A DNA stretch of 46,339 bases from Betaproteobacteria bacterium. GTDB lineage: Bacteria > Pseudomonadota > Gammaproteobacteria > Burkholderiales > Burkholderiaceae_A. The stretch lies in NCBI GenBank assembly GCA_016868305.1, contig VGHK01000017.1, positions 1 to 46,339 of the forward strand, written 5' to 3'. Positions within the stretch are counted from its first letter, which is position 1, and the number at the start of each line of letters is the position of its first letter. Of this stretch, positions 41,098 through 46,339 are shown in pieces. The notes beneath the pieces were generated by a model. That model worked only from the letters and a program-made list of their open reading frames with translations, had not been told where the DNA came from and ran no database searches. The position numbers and the translations under genes were made by a program.

Positions 41098-41976
41098 ATG
41101 ACTGTTCTGTCTTCGTCGACCGCTCTGACCCTTCCCCAGCTCTCGCCCTTGGCGAATCTGGATGGCTATATTCGCGCCGTGCAGCAGTTTCCTCTCTTGT
41201 CTGCCAGGCAGGAGCAGGAGTTCGCCCTGAAGTTTCGTACGCTGGGCGATCTCGAGGCCGCGCGCATGCTGGTGCTTTCCCACTTACGGCTGGTGGTGGC
41301 GGTTTCCCGCCAGTATCTGGGCTATGGGCTGCCGCAGGCCGACCTGATTCAAGAGGGCAATGTGGGCCTGATGAAGGCCGTAAAGCGGTTTGATCCTACC
41401 CAAGGGGTGCGGCTGGTATCGTACGCCCTGCATTGGATTAAGGCGGAGATTCACGAGTACATTCTGCGCAACTGGCAGATGGTGAAGGTGGCCACCACCA
41501 AGGCCCAGCGCAAGCTCTTTTTTAACCTGAAGTCGCTTAAGCGGGCGCTGGGGGCTGATGCTGCGGTAACCACCGACCAGGCCCAGGTGATTGCCAAAGA
41601 GCTCAACGTCTCGCGTGATGAGGTCATGGAGATGGACCGCCGCCTGTCGGGGGGCGATACGCCCTTGGAGCCCGTGAACGACGACGGCGAAACGGTGGGC
41701 CCGATTGCCAGCCTGGCGGCCGAAAACGCTGACCCGGCCTATCTGGTGGCCGAGGCCCAGGAGGCCCAGGTCATGGGGGCGCAGCTGCGCACCGCGCTTG
41801 AGGGGCTTGATCCCCGTAGTCGGGCGATTGTGCAGGCACGCTGGCTGGCAGACTCTGATGAAAAGGGCCCGACCCTGCATGACCTTGCCGCTGAATATGG
41901 TGTGTCGGCAGAGCGGGTTCGTCAGATAGAGGCTGCGGCGCTCAAGAAGATAAAAAAACTCATGCTGGCGCAGTAG
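41098..41976 (+). CDS. rpoH: RNA polymerase sigma-32 (heat shock) factor
   Basis: YIRAVQQFPLLSARQEQEFALKF is region 1.2, LVVAVSRQYLGYGLPQADLIQEGNVGLMKAVKRFDP region 2.1-2.2, and LVSYALHWIKAEIHEYILRNW region 2.3-2.4. The sigma32-specific RpoH box (QRKLFFNL) comes next, and LAAEYGVSAERVRQIEAAALKKI is the region 4.2 helix-turn-helix. 292 residues. ATG 41098 has AAGGAGG upstream. Control by HrcA through the CIRCE element in its leader is predicted. Confidence 0.98.
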   Translation: MTVLSSSTALTLPQLSPLANLDGYIRAVQQFPLLSARQEQEFALKFRTLGDLEAARMLVLSHLRLVVAVSRQYLGYGLPQADLIQEGNVGLMKAVKRFDPTQGVRLVSYALHWIKAEIHEYILRNWQMVKVATTKAQRKLFFNLKSLKRALGADAAVTTDQAQVIAKELNVSRDEVMEMDRRLSGGDTPLEPVNDDGETVGPIASLAAENADPAYLVAEAQEAQVMGAQLRTALEGLDPRSRAIVQARWLADSDEKGPTLHDLAAEYGVSAERVRQIEAAALKKIKKLMLAQ

Positions 41977-42044: not shown

Positions 42045-42068
42045 ATTACGGTGACAGCTCACTTAATT
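42045..42068 (+). repeat. Half-copy of the ATTACGGTGACAG repeat downstream of rpoH
   Basis: ATTACGGTGACAG is identical to the start of the full palindromic copies further on, followed by CTCACTTAATT where the full copies have TTTACTAAAT. No opposing arm is found nearby. It lies 28 bases beyond the stop of the WYL gene, so that gene has repeat sequence on both sides. Confidence 0.8.
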
Positions 42069-42095
42069 CAGTCCCCACCAACGCTAGGAGCTTTC

Positions 42096-43085
42096 TCAGG
42101 TTTTGTAACTGTAAGCAGCATCGCGGTGCTTGGTGGCCACCAGTTCACGCAGGCTGGCTGGTGACACGATTCGCACGTCTGCACCATGGCGCATGATGTC
42201 CATCACCAGCTCCCGAGTATCACTGTACGGAAAACTGATCTGCCACTGGTCTCCCACCCATTTACCAGTCTGGTCTGGGTGCCATGATTCTGCACAGACC
42301 CATCGTGACCGTTCGGCCGAGAACTGCAGCACGGCGGTATCGATGGGCTTTCCGGAGAAGATGCCATAGCTGGCTGCCAGGGTAGATTCCAGTTCCTCTT
42401 CGCTGATCTCGATGGCAGCCTCTTGTAAGGTTCTCACGCGTACCATGGCATCGACCGAGAAGGTAGAAAGCCGTTCCCGCAGATGGCAGTAGGCATCGAG
42501 GTACCAGTTGTCGCGGTAGTGAACCAGCCGCTGAGGCGAGACCACCCGCTCGGTCTGGTCGCCTCGAGCGCGGCTGGTGTAGACAATACGCACACGCCTG
42601 CGGGCGAGCACCGCATTGGCCAGCCTGGGGAAGTACTGGCTGGGCTTGCGCGATGCCATGGGCAGAATGCGAATACGCGCGCGCAGCTGTTGGTCGAGCA
42701 CCTGGCTTGGCCCAAGTAGGTCCTCGAGGCGCTTTTGAAAGGGTGCCAGGTGAGGCCCCAGTACCTCCCGCGCCCCGTAGCCCTCAAGCAGCACATACAT
42801 GGAAAGCAGTGCCTGGAGCTCCTGCTGGCTAAACCACAGGCCCGCAAGCTCAACTTTATTGCCCCTCTTCGCCCGGCCAGGCAGCTGGCCTGCCGTTGCC
42901 AGCCGGTAGAGCCCTTCGCTTGTGTCGTATACGATGTCGACCTGATAACGACTACGTAGAAACTCCAGGTCACGCTTGAAGGTGGGATGCGACACCTCAA
43001 GCTCGGTGATCATCTCGTCACGGGTGAAGGCACCACGACTGCGCAGCACTTTCATGATGATGTGAAGGCGTTCGTCGCGGCTCAT
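42096..43085 (-). CDS. WYL-domain transcriptional regulator (YafY/DeoR type)
   Basis: N-terminal winged helix-turn-helix (SRDERLHIIMKVLRSRGAFTRDEMITELEVS, about 1-60), then a WYL domain (RVRIVYTSRARGDQTERVVSPQRLVHYRDNWYLDAYCH, about 167-205) and a C-terminal WCX region. WYL domains sense small ligands, often nucleic acids, and many such regulators control accessory or defence genes. ATG 43085; no ribosome binding site is visible, and a palindromic repeat begins 14 bases upstream. 329 residues. It may regulate the neighbouring genes, which all carry the same repeat near their starts. Confidence 0.88.
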   Translation of the reverse strand: MSRDERLHIIMKVLRSRGAFTRDEMITELEVSHPTFKRDLEFLRSRYQVDIVYDTSEGLYRLATAGQLPGRAKRGNKVELAGLWFSQQELQALLSMYVLLEGYGAREVLGPHLAPFQKRLEDLLGPSQVLDQQLRARIRILPMASRKPSQYFPRLANAVLARRRVRIVYTSRARGDQTERVVSPQRLVHYRDNWYLDAYCHLRERLSTFSVDAMVRVRTLQEAAIEISEEELESTLAASYGIFSGKPIDTAVLQFSAERSRWVCAESWHPDQTGKWVGDQWQISFPYSDTRELVMDIMRHGADVRIVSPASLRELVATKHRDAAYSYKT

Positions 43086-43098
43086 GGGTATAAGAATA

Positions 43099-43191
43099 AA
43101 TTACGGTGACAGTTTACTAAATACACTAAATTTGGGGTAAGAATACGAAATTTGATTAATTTAGTGTATTTAGTAAACTGTCACCGTAATT
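43099..43191. repeat. Palindromic element, copy 1
   Basis: Arms 43099-43132 and 43158-43191 are perfect 34-bp inverted repeats beginning AATTACGGTGACAG and enclosing a 25-base AT-rich spacer. The element lies 14 bases upstream of the WYL start and overlaps the 3' end of the aldolase gene, supplying its last codons and stop. Confidence 0.97.
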
Positions 43192-43931
43192 AATAGCTGC
43201 GCGAGCCCCTCGCGCATCATGGTGACATCACTGCCTGCGGCAACCATCGAAAACCCCTTCTGAAAGAGTGCGGCCGCTGCCACGCCGCCAAAGGGTATCG
43301 TGCCTATAGGCATACCTGCCTTCTTGCAGGTCTCTGCAATGGCGTCCATTACTTTCCAAAACGCCTCTTGATCAGAAATCGCCTCAAGGCCTATATTGGC
43401 CGAAAGATCAGTGGGGCCGATGAAAACCAGGTCAATCAGTGGCTCGGACACGATCTGAGGCAATGCCTCTATTGCCTGTGAGGACTCAACCTGCACCGAT
43501 ACAAAGACATCGCGGTTACTGCGGTCACGGTAGTTCGCTTCAAGCCCATAATGCGAGCCGCGAATCAACGGTATGGCCTTGCCCCGATCACCCTGTGGGG
43601 GATAGTGGGCTGCGCGCGCGCAGTCACGGGCCTGGTCAATGGTGTCAACGCGCGGCACCATAACCCCTGCGGCGCCACGATCGAGCACGCGCGCCACAAA
43701 GCTTGGATGGGCGTAGGGGATGCGGACTATGGGCGCACAACTGCCCGAGAAGCCGCGAAGAATATTCGGCAGGTCAGCCATGTCGATGGCCCCATGCTCC
43801 ATGTCCACAACAATAAAATCAAGCTGCAGCGCGCAGGCGAGCTCGGCAAACACCGGGTTCGGGCTGCACATCCAGGCACCAATTACCTTTTCTCCCTGAC
43901 GCACCCGCTGCTTGAGTGAGGCCGCCACCAT
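43170..43931 (-). CDS. HpcH/HpaI aldolase/citrate lyase family protein
   Basis: A TIM-barrel class II aldolase of the type that splits 2-keto-3-deoxy acids. FIVVDMEHGAID contains the catalytic His46, VSVQVESSQAIE metal ligand Glu149, and IGPTDLSANIG Asp175; VMVPRVDTIDQA is the family signature. ATG 43931 has GGGAG seven bases upstream; the TTG before it is unlikely. 253 residues. The last residues (ITVTVY) and the TAA stop are encoded by palindromic copy 1, so the natural C-terminus was replaced or extended by the repeat. A decayed half-copy precedes the gene. Confidence 0.9.
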   Translation of the reverse strand: MVAASLKQRVRQGEKVIGAWMCSPNPVFAELACALQLDFIVVDMEHGAIDMADLPNILRGFSGSCAPIVRIPYAHPSFVARVLDRGAAGVMVPRVDTIDQARDCARAAHYPPQGDRGKAIPLIRGSHYGLEANYRDRSNRDVFVSVQVESSQAIEALPQIVSEPLIDLVFIGPTDLSANIGLEAISDQEAFWKVMDAIAETCKKAGMPIGTIPFGGVAAAALFQKGFSMVAAGSDVTMMREGLAQLLITVTVY

Positions 43932-43952
43932 CAAAGACTCCCAAAGTTAACT

Positions 43953-43971
43953 ATCACGATAACAGTTTATT
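43953..43971 (+). repeat. Decayed half-copy upstream of the aldolase gene
   Basis: ATCACGATAACAGTTTATT matches ATTACGGTGACAGTTTACT at 15 of 19 positions, and all four differences are transitions. It ends 22 bases before the aldolase ATG side of the gap, just upstream of the GGGAG site. No opposing arm is visible. The remaining gap to the SUMF1 gene (to 44079) shows nothing else I can name. Confidence 0.6.
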
Positions 43972-44079
43972 TCGAAGTGCCTCGCAGGCCGAATGCCTTG
44001 CGCCCGACTATGGGCCCCTGCGCAGAGGATTATTGAACAAGCCGGTTTCGAGCCGGGATTAAGTGAACCGAAACTCATG

Positions 44080-44835
44080 TCATCGCACGCACCGAAACCC
44101 AATGTAGACCACGCGGGTATCTCTTGGCTTTGTCGCGACATCGCTCTCTCGTTGGCGGCTGGCGTCGTACCACCAGGAGCTGCTGCGGGTAATGCGTTCA
44201 TCGCCTCGCCCATTATCGACCCATTCCCAGACATTGCCGCCCATCTCAAAAAGGCCATTCACGCCCGCGGGGGTGGTCATGGCAGGCACCGCGCCTACGC
44301 CACGGTTTAAGGAGCCCGCCGGGGCCGTACCCTGATAGTTGCCGCAGCCGCTCAGACAATGACTAACTGCGGCGGAGTCGCCATTAGGGTAGGTATACCG
44401 CTTGCCCTTGATAAACCCCGACGGTGGGGAAGCGCGCTGCTCTAGGTAGGCGGCATCGGTCCATTCTTTGTCGTTGGGGAGTCTCTTTCCGAAGAACTTG
44501 CAGACCGACTGGGCTTCATCGAAAGTCAGGTGAACGGCTGGCTCGTTGTCTTTTCCAGGAACACCAAAAGGGGCGCGCCAGGTCCAGCCCTTTTTCTGAA
44601 CCCAGCCAGACTCGTAGACATAGCCCCCGCCCTCTTTTTCTGCGCGGCTGACAAACCCCGTGGCCTGCGCCATTTTTTGCACCTGGGCGATGGTGACCTC
44701 GTGAATGTCCCAGTCGAGACCATGCACCCGGATCGTAGACCCTAGCGCCGGCATAACGGTACCCATGACCAGTGTCGCCAGTAACAAATTACGGTAATGG
44801 TTTACCAGCCCTGAGTACTTGATACACTGTTTCAT
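44080..44835 (-). CDS. Secreted SUMF1/formylglycine-generating-enzyme-domain protein
   Basis: A C-type-lectin-fold protein of the FGE-sulfatase (SUMF1) family. A hydrophobic signal segment (about 16-38) is followed by VTIAQVQKMAQATGFV, VHLTFDEAQSVCKFFGKRLPNDKEWTDAA, GLFEMGGNVWEWVDNG, and a C-terminal IGFRCVR. Such domains may oxidise a Cys to formylglycine, or simply bind. Here the export signal and lack of a nearby sulfatase leave the role open. ATG 44835 is clear (AAGGAG six bases upstream) over TTG 44853. 251 residues. Part of the N-terminal coding sequence (44788-44807) resembles the intergenic repeat. Confidence 0.88.
   Translation of the reverse strand: MKQCIKYSGLVNHYRNLLLATLVMGTVMPALGSTIRVHGLDWDIHEVTIAQVQKMAQATGFVSRAEKEGGGYVYESGWVQKKGWTWRAPFGVPGKDNEPAVHLTFDEAQSVCKFFGKRLPNDKEWTDAAYLEQRASPPSGFIKGKRYTYPNGDSAAVSHCLSGCGNYQGTAPAGSLNRGVGAVPAMTTPAGVNGLFEMGGNVWEWVDNGRGDERITRSSSWWYDASRQRESDVATKPRDTRVVYIGFRCVR
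44788..44807 (+). repeat. Decayed repeat half-copy inside the SUMF1 gene
   Basis: ATTACGGTAATGGTTTACCA matches ATTACGGTGACAGTTTACTA at 16 of 20 positions, with four transitions. On the coding strand it encodes the residues LVNHYRN before the signal-peptide core. Chance similarity cannot be excluded for a 20-base match, but the location in the repeat-rich region makes descent plausible. Confidence 0.45.
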
Positions 44836-44854
44836 GACAAGCTCCTTGTCCAAC

Positions 44855-44961
44855 GCATTACGGCATTACCGCATTACGGTGACAGTTTACTAAATACACT
44901 AAATCAAGGATAAAAATGCAATTTTCGTTTAATTTAGTGTATTTAGTAAACTGTCACCGTA
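44855..44961. repeat. Palindromic element, copy 2, with three tandem GCATTAC(G/C) units
   Basis: Arms 44875-44904 and 44932-44961 are perfect 30-bp inverted repeats around a 27-base spacer related to those of copies 1 and 3. The outer two or three bases of the arms no longer pair. On the left, 44855-44878 is three tandem 8-base units (GCATTACG, GCATTACC, GCATTACG), the last of which is the arm's own end. The element fills the divergent gap between the SUMF1 and dioxygenase genes. Confidence 0.95.
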
Positions 44962-44986
44962 TTAACCATATTCAACGTTTCGTTAC

Positions 44987-45580
44987 ATGCAATTGAAAAA
45001 CAATCATCGTAGCTCACGGCGAACACTGGTGCTGACCCTGGGCTCGGGCGTCGTCGCATCGACGCTGGCAGCTCCTTGGGTGCTCACTCCGCGTAAGTCT
45101 CTTGCTCAGACACTGCCGGCCACGCCGACGTGCGGATCGCGTACTCCATCGCAGATGGAAGGGCCTTTCTTTACGCCTCTGTCGCCCGAGCGGGTGAGTC
45201 TTCTCGAGGCCGATATGCGTGGCCCGCGAATGGTGCTCAAGGGCCAGGTGGTTGATTCAGCCTGCCGCCCACTGGCTGGGGCCTTACTTGATTTTTGGCA
45301 GTGCGATGACCAGGGCCGTTATGACAATCAGGGCTATCGGCTTCGGGGGCATCAGTTGGCTAACCGGCAGGGTGCGTTTTCACTTTCTACCCTGTTGCCC
45401 GGGGAGTATCCAGGCAGAACCCCGCACATTCATGTAAAGGTGCAGCCCGTTAATGGCCGGGTGTTAACCACCCAGCTCTACCTGCCCGATCACCCCCGAA
45501 ACCAGCGCGACTTCTTATTTGACCCCAGGCTTGTGGTCACTAAAAAAGACGACGGTTTCTACTTCCAGTTCGTCTTTTAG
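44987..45580 (+). CDS. Tat-exported intradiol ring-cleavage dioxygenase
   Basis: An Fe(III) dioxygenase of the catechol/protocatechuate fold. All four iron ligands are visible: Tyr112 (GRYDNQGY), Tyr141 (GEYPG), His147 and His149 (TPHIHV). MEGPFFTP is the family N-terminal motif. The first 41 residues are a twin-arginine signal (SSRRTLVL, hydrophobic core, cleavage near SLAQ), so it is exported folded. Extracytoplasmic intradiol dioxygenases are usually of unknown substrate. 197 residues. ATG 44987 lacks a ribosome binding site and follows palindromic copy 2 by 24 bases. Confidence 0.9.
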   Translation: MQLKNNHRSSRRTLVLTLGSGVVASTLAAPWVLTPRKSLAQTLPATPTCGSRTPSQMEGPFFTPLSPERVSLLEADMRGPRMVLKGQVVDSACRPLAGALLDFWQCDDQGRYDNQGYRLRGHQLANRQGAFSLSTLLPGEYPGRTPHIHVKVQPVNGRVLTTQLYLPDHPRNQRDFLFDPRLVVTKKDDGFYFQFVF

Positions 45581-45622
45581 AGTCTACCAAATGCACTTTA
45601 TTGCGGAAGTTTTCACATTACG

Positions 45623-45741
45623 CATTACGGTGACAGTTTACTAAATACACTAAATTTTGAGGAAAAATGCAAAATTTGATTAATTTAGTGTATTTAGTAA
45701 ACTGTCACCGTAATGGTGTCACCGTAATGCGCAACCGTAAT
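45623..45741. repeat. Palindromic element, copy 3, with iterated ends
   Basis: Arms 45623-45656 and 45682-45715 are perfect 34-bp inverted repeats around a 25-base spacer close to that of copy 1. Both ends are iterated: CATTACG occurs twice in tandem at 45616-45629 on the left, and on the right TGTCACCGTAAT recurs at 45717-45728 followed by GCAACCGTAAT at 45731-45741. The tail ends two bases before the ATG of the amidohydrolase gene. Confidence 0.96.
45676..45703 (+). promoter_or_regulatory. Possible outward promoter in copy 3
   Basis: TTGATT (45676-45681) and TAAACT (45698-45703) are 16 bases apart and point towards the amidohydrolase gene. Each hexamer matches four of six consensus positions. 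The same arrangement exists in copy 1; copy 2 has lost the TTGATT. Weak evidence. Confidence 0.3.
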
Positions 45742-45743
45742 TG

Positions 45744-46339
45744 ATGTATTTCTATTCCCATCCTCGGTTTCAAGATCACTCCATGGGCGTGGGTCACCCG
45801 GAGTGCCCCGAGCGGCTTGTGGCAATAGAGCGCGCACTAAAGAGGCAGGGCCTATGGTCTGAACTTGAGCATCAGGTGCCTGAACCCATAGACGCTCAGT
45901 GGCTCAAACTCGCGCACACCGAGGATCACCTGCGGCGCCTTGCGGTGCCCGTACCCGTGGGTACCTTCAGGCATATAGATCCTGACACCTGCATGAATGC
46001 GCAGACCTACGAGGCCATTCTGCTGGCGAGTGGCGCAGTCGTTCAGGCCATCGATGCAGTGATGGCGGGTCGGACACGTCATGCGTTTTGTGCGGTTCGC
46101 CCCCCTGGCCATCACGCAGAGCGGGGCGCTGCCATGGGCTTTTGCTTCGTAAACCATATCGCAGTTGGTGCCTTGTATGCCCGACAAAAATACGCACTAG
46201 AACGCATTGCGGTGATCGACTTTGATGTGCACCACGGCAATGGCACCGAAGATATTCTTGCCAATGAGGAAGGCCTGCTCATGGTCTCTTTGTTTCAACA
46301 AGGGATCTACCCCGGTTCGGGTACCAGGCCCAAAGGCCC
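45744..46339 (+). CDS. Histone deacetylase/acetylpolyamine amidohydrolase family protein, N-terminal part
   Basis: Zinc-dependent deacetylase of the arginase fold. The frame runs from ATG 45744 to the window end without a stop (198 codons). SHPRFQDHSMGVGHPECPERL is the N-terminal signature of the bacterial HDAC-like family. RPPGHHAE contains the catalytic His pair (123, 124), GFCFVNHIAVGA follows, and VIDFDVHHGNGTED carries the zinc ligands Asp161 and His163. The gene is cut by the window edge, not truncated in the genome. No ribosome binding site is seen because repeat copy 3 abuts the start. Confidence 0.93.
   Translation, partial: MYFYSHPRFQDHSMGVGHPECPERLVAIERALKRQGLWSELEHQVPEPIDAQWLKLAHTEDHLRRLAVPVPVGTFRHIDPDTCMNAQTYEAILLASGAVVQAIDAVMAGRTRHAFCAVRPPGHHAERGAAMGFCFVNHIAVGALYARQKYALERIAVIDFDVHHGNGTEDILANEEGLLMVSLFQQGIYPGSGTRPKG

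Follow-up and report, generated by a model that had tools for sequence, protein, structure and literature searches.

Three palindromes of 91 bp each lie in the final 3.3 kb of a 46,339-nucleotide stretch of betaproteobacterial DNA (GenBank assembly GCA_016868305.1, contig VGHK01000017.1, positions 1 to 46,339), which is called the window here. They are most probably non-autonomous elements of a TIRYT-type HUH/Y1 transposase of subclass 2.1, a reading to which we assign a probability of roughly 0.87. Each element would consist of two terminal inverted repeats (TIRs), joined head to head over a short spacer, without the transposase gene.

The palindromes belong to a dispersed repeat family with at least 23 palindromic copies, they are missing beside the homologues of their neighbouring genes that were inspected in relatives, and the same inverted ends are found around Y1 transposase genes elsewhere, including in a congener. 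A preliminary description of this DNA had proposed either a mobile element or an operator for a WYL regulator encoded next to it. These three results favour the mobile element, and we infer that a TIRYT enzyme mobilised it.

In single-stranded DNA, the whole element would fold into one long hairpin. By analogy with the biochemistry of TnpA-REP and IS200/IS605, the cognate transposase would recognise this hairpin and cut near its base. Repetitive extragenic palindromic (REP) sequences are reported to be cut at CT dinucleotides that flank them on both sides (PMC8266576). Copies would spread into intergenic sites, and some would end up beside start codons by accident.

The palindromes and their copies

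The window is on contig C17 of a 2.26-Mb genome of 97 contigs that is 97.45% complete. The first palindrome (43100-43190) lies in the interval between the start of the WYL gene and the 3' end of an aldolase gene, and overlaps that 3' end. The second (44873-44963) sits between the starts of a SUMF1-like gene and a dioxygenase gene. The third (45624-45714) lies between the 3' end of the dioxygenase gene and the start of a gene of the histone-deacetylase (HDAC) family.

Three full palindromes, with arms of about 33 bp and spacers of 25 to 27 bases, had been described before. Their number stands, and so do the arms, which are inverted, 33-37 nt long and 97-100% complementary; the spacers were measured at 21-25 nt instead. 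Both ends of the element share ATTACGG...CCGTAAT. Folding was computed for copy 1 alone among the window palindromes. As a DNA strand it reaches -33.6 kcal/mol, whereas 200 shuffled versions average -6.46 (z -11.85) and not one of them folds as stably. An Rfam search of the palindromes gave no match.

All matches to a 16-nt end motif in the 46-kb window, allowing up to 4 mismatches, fall in 42048-45711, which agrees with the earlier statement that the element is restricted to 3.7 kb of the window. It is not restricted to this gene cluster in the genome. A 22-nt end pattern with up to 3 mismatches matches the whole genome 53 times (26 forward, 27 reverse), and the reversed control 0 times.

Palindromes were counted in the window and in 19 stretches around matches of the end pattern, so the genome total is at least 23. 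The 23 innermost palindromes are of two kinds, 7 long (91 bp) and 16 short (57-61 bp). Three of the long copies are in the window, three on C15 and one on C9, and none is more than 4 kb away from a contig start or from the end of C17. Single or decayed halves are found besides these on C7, C26, C34, C50, C54 and others.

Neighbours were taken to be the nearest open reading frames (ORFs) queried in Pfam, based on mechanical ORF calls. Nine copies are not counted, since on one side at least the neighbour matched no family or no ORF was present. For the other 14 of the 23, both neighbours were identified: 7 copies are between convergent genes, 6 between co-directional genes and 1 between divergent genes. 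Outside the window the figures are 7 convergent and 4 co-directional (11 resolved copies). The neighbours include ordinary genes, like folE2, YchF, PhoH and FKBP, and folE2/DUF520 and YchF/AhpC are among the convergent pairs outside the window.

A search of 61 genomes for the exact 16-nt end found it in two, namely the present genome and that of the congener (G004). DNA matches of relatives to the five genes at the end of the window fall at separate places. One contig of G004 carries the HDAC and SUMF1 homologues with more than 200 kb between them, and a different contig carries the dioxygenase homologue. None of the inspected stretches contains a palindrome; these are the 3' and 5' ends of the aldolase gene (G005, G006), and the 5' ends of the HDAC gene (G004, G005), the dioxygenase gene (G006, G009) and the WYL gene (G007). 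This suggests that the copies arrived after the lineages parted, or that the relatives lost them, arrival being the simpler of the two.

On contig C1 of G004 (locus L198, 4286-4414), a pair of element copies spaced by about 80 bp looks as if an element had been duplicated in tandem together with its flank. A phage collection searched for the element gave no match, and viral contigs gave one stretch with the motif. Among plasmids there was one record, Thiodictyon pTs417 (NZ_CP020371.1), matching in four places, at best with 75.5% identity over 85% of the query. At positions 55980-56072 of this record (L258) a relative of the long palindrome, 75.5% identical, has toxin-antitoxin genes around it.

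Association with Y1 transposases

Public loci were fetched by motif. There are 110 of them among the matches listed, 109 from the genome_contigs collection and one from a viral contig. Judging by record titles, the hosts of the motif among the matches listed are Alpha-, Beta-, Gamma- and Zetaproteobacteria. ORF comparison found one protein cluster in 22 of the 110 loci, again among the matches listed. The Pfam family Y1_Tnp (PF01797) was matched by 8 of the 9 cluster members scanned; the ninth is a 170-aa fragment.

There are 27 transposase spans among the matches listed, three of which touch a locus edge. The motif lies within 250 bp upstream of 20 spans and downstream of 20, with 15 having it on both sides and 2 on neither. 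It points inward in 42 of 43 occurrences. Random placements in the same loci have the motif upstream in 6.5% of cases and downstream in 6.7%.

The Y1 gene of congener G004 encodes 225 aa (PF01797, E 3.8e-8). It has CTCGGTGACAGTTTACT and TTCGGTGACACTTCACT upstream, and the palindrome CCCGGTGCCAGTTTACT directly downstream. An alignment of nine proteins, eight public and that of G004, shows MPNHVH and GHLWQGR in all of them. The tyrosine motif R-Y-V-[TSA]-L-N-P is present in eight, while the protein of locus L127 has H-H-V-S-H-N-P. The motif-associated enzymes carry NHVH and YVxLNP motifs and measure 225-237 aa.

The preliminary description had suggested looking for a Y1 transposase flanked by the same ends. 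TIRs flank such genes in the public loci and, in related form, in G004, but not within this genome.

Comparison with known elements

Y1 genes bordered by TIRs rather than REPs have been described as TIRtrons, or TIRYT (Di Nocera et al. 2013, PMC3733652). Some TIRs in that account have a GGGGWSAS core, and the TIR families are moderately abundant, with some dimers. Quentin et al. 2018 (PMC6006769) put 20 of their 26 examples in subclass 2.1 of TnpA-Y1. The signature given there for this subclass is NHVH, W[EQ] and Y[IV]xLNP, with a median of 238 aa. For subclass 2.1 genes the same source states that REP-like sequences were not found nearby, and calls for further analysis.

The family described here shares with TIRtrons the inverted repeats around a Y1 gene, and the scattered TIR copies including dimers, of which this genome has 23 palindromic TIR pairs plus halves. 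The enzymes have the same signature at about 230 aa, with the L127 protein as the one exception. Where the published core is GGGGACAG-like, here it is GGTGACAG. This 2.26-Mb genome also differs in having two palindromic subfamilies, stuttered ends and no cognate transposase that could be found. In a literature search by sequence, the matches listed all had the 10-mer ACGGTGACAG alone and none of the longer strings.

Classical miniature inverted-repeat transposable elements (MITEs) are derivatives of DDE transposons and duplicate their target site on insertion. The palindromes are like MITEs in that they are shorter than 100 bp, non-coding, bounded by terminal inverted repeats and presumably mobilised in trans. 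They are different in that a single hairpin takes up nearly the entire element, and a duplication of the target was not established.

Several observations weigh against the assignment to TIRYT. The public loci were pre-selected by motif, which makes the transposase association an enrichment over same-locus controls and not a result from an unbiased gene set. The core GGTGACAG matches GGGGWSAS at 7 of 8 positions and so departs from the published consensus by one base; that consensus is itself present in just some TIRs (PMC3733652). A base-exact empty site was not demonstrated because the DNA of the relatives is just 65-77% identical. A PF01797 search of this genome returned 0 matches. The best homologue of the public transposases is an ORF on contig C2, with 29% identity (E 1.3e-16), which stays below the Pfam cut-off (E 0.25) and is not flanked by the motif (L199, by eye). 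In the alignment it has EAH for HVH and QW for RY; the leading histidine of the HUH motif and the tyrosine are both lost.

As a resident transposase this C2 homologue is judged inactive from the alignment, and it is perhaps a domesticated or dead copy. It is located at C2:46937-47494, between glutamate-synthase-like and aroB-like regions (neighbours judged by eye). A second, weak match to the transposase query, on C6 (E 0.04), has one stop. It is possible that the cognate gene is present but unassembled. Given that no cognate enzyme was found in the genome, the copies are probably immobile here now.

Alternative explanations

The arm ATTACGGTGACAG could also be an operator of the resident WYL regulator, which would make the cluster a regulon. 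WYL regulators elsewhere act at inverted repeats, and here three copies, adjoining the WYL gene, lie 14-37 nt from four starts. The distance is 14 nt for WYL, 23 nt for the dioxygenase gene, 29 nt for the last gene (ATG 45744), and 19 nt (TTG 44853) or 37 nt (ATG 44835) for SUMF1. The element had been said to sit upstream of all five genes, which overstates the case: three copies serve four starts, the half at 42045 is upstream of no gene, and the aldolase remnant is weak. One WYL gene was found by searching the genome, that of the window, versus at least 20 palindromes elsewhere. Between the convergent genes that surround 7 of the 11 resolved outside copies, neither neighbour starts. The five genes are scattered in relatives, the G007 homologue of the WYL gene lacks a palindrome upstream, and outside this genome the motif is found on the flanks of transposase genes. 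Copies were not seen to track WYL homologues or gene starts. Hundreds of copies without a link to start codons had been named as the pattern that would speak against an operator; copies of that kind exist, in the tens. Based on the copy distribution, the single WYL gene and the relatives, operator and regulon are rejected, and we find them scarcely credible.

The palindromes could in principle be classical GTAG REPs, REPINs or BIMEs that belong to a REP-associated tyrosine transposase (RAYT; for RAYT biology see PMC2817692). Like these, they are small, palindromic, scattered, intergenic hairpins with a link to Y1 transposases. They lack the GTAG/GTGG foot however, having ATTAC/GTAAT on both ends, and their arms are longer and richer in A+T. 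In addition, the enzymes (NHVH, YVxLNP, 225-237 aa) fit subclass 2.1 and not the REP subclasses tabulated in PMC6006769. This makes a GTAG REP very improbable. A further alternative accepts the mobile origin, but has the copies now affecting their neighbours, either because a hairpin forms in the 5' untranslated region or because mRNA decay is altered. The hairpin is strong and close to the four starts, and REP-like elements are known to act in mRNA, as reviewed in PMC3733652. On the other side, promoter-like sites are not above chance (2 versus 2.6 expected) with neither inside a palindrome, no palindrome has a terminator-like site, and Rfam offers nothing. A present-day effect on genes is possible, if somewhat doubtful.

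Duplications at the element ends

The ends of the elements stutter. The 40-nt flanks of the palindromes of this genome contain 42 end hexamers that read in the same sense as the adjoining end and one that reads the other way; they come from 17 of the 23 copies. Across 2,000 shuffles the count averaged 0.42 and never went above 4. For 213 public ends with 60-nt flanks, which are not independent since several come from one genome in some cases, the numbers are 113 same-sense and 0 opposite, with a shuffled mean of 2.7.

Perfect tandem duplications across the element boundary were found at 52 of 212 ends in the public loci and at 14 of 56 in this genome, about a quarter in each case. Controls at random positions gave 39 in 10,600 and 9 in 2,800 respectively, or 0.3-0.4%. 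The same test on E. coli REP ends gave 0 in 101 (47 heads and 54 tails, from five 49-kb stretches). Each duplicated unit joins a piece of flank, 1-9 nt long and longer only in rare cases, to a piece of the end that mostly measures 5-28 nt; five of the duplications are simple repeats of a unit that was already duplicated. Partial ends stacked outward, many with perfect duplications that straddle the boundary, can be seen at L060, L062, L069, L105, L107, L117, L137 and others, and in the window at 45617-45623 and 45715-45741.

Stacked ends share on average 2.9 nt of flank in the public loci, versus 0.86 when re-paired, and 1.6 versus 0.53 in this genome. Serial insertion at a fixed target is disfavoured as the source, because the repeated flank varies between places yet agrees within a place. 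Slippage through homology is not clearly needed, as the extra homology is 0 or 1 nt at 40 of the 52 public duplications.

A duplication straddling the boundary is the expected trace of a staggered break that is filled in, or of nicking, extension and rejoining. The source most readily suspected is the HUH enzyme, through its cut close to the base of the hairpin. The stacked partial ends may then be footprints of enzyme chemistry, an idea we put forward tentatively. Nicks would be made repeatedly at 1-9 nt outside the hairpin base, and extension would proceed through the base into the arm. The new 3' end would be rejoined to the displaced strand, which would leave a second copy of the flank and of 5-28 nt of the end. 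Other possible sources of such duplications are stalled replication and hairpin nucleases. The duplications are as frequent next to a transposase gene (11 of 47) as elsewhere (44 of 180), which fits either kind of source. Literature searches, with key papers covered in part, brought up no description of boundary duplications at such ends.

Stuttering may extend to other TIRYT families. In genome G036 (C42, L228/L166), stacked partial ends of a different TIR (GATAGGGGACAGACC) were seen by eye downstream of its Y1 gene. The automatic duplication test was negative in G036 at the upstream end of that TIR and at three other TIRs.

Other features of the window

Several lesser pieces accompany the palindromes. 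A partial end copy, ATTACGGCATTACCGC, is stacked outside copy 2 on the forward strand (44857-44872). Outside copy 3, ATTACGC (45617-45623, forward) forms a perfect 7-nt tandem duplication across the boundary. Two more partial ends on the reverse strand (45715-45741) are stacked beyond its right end, and correspond to what had earlier been called a tail.

A single decayed arm on the forward strand (42045-42069) is closer to the short subfamily, whose arm it matches at 23 of 25 positions, than to the long one, with 21 of 25. It is flanked by the 3' ends of a sigma-factor gene (forward, ending at 41976) and the WYL gene (reverse, ending at 42096). Being between two convergent ends, it is upstream of neither. 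Two other remnants are uncertain and weak on their own. Possible very decayed half-sites lie upstream of the aldolase gene (43945-43971; 3-4 mismatches in 16, 3 for the one at 43956). A possible forward half (44788-44806; 4 mismatches in 16, at 44791) falls within the SUMF1-like ORF, in the part for its N-terminus.

Where copy 1 overlaps the aldolase gene, the element encodes the final residues ITVTVY (43170-43190). The aldolase homologues in G005 and G006 have different C-terminal ends. The fifth gene, taken for an amidohydrolase in the preliminary description, is in fact a member of the histone-deacetylase family (PF00850, E 4.5e-55 in Pfam). Contig C17 ends within this gene (46337-46339), and a search for its C-terminal part, using a G004 fragment as query, gave no match in the rest of the assembly through which C17 might have been joined to another contig.

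Implications

On this analysis the cluster loses its regulatory explanation, and the regulon that went with it is spurious. What is gained is a defined TIR family with its type of transposase, spread over several proteobacterial classes. TIRYT enzymes are nearly unstudied. The boundary duplications provide a handle, readable from sequence, on how hairpin elements are cut and copied. If the footprint explanation is true, TIRYT elements would be repeatedly opened and copied in place, and their cleavage sites could be mapped from genomes.

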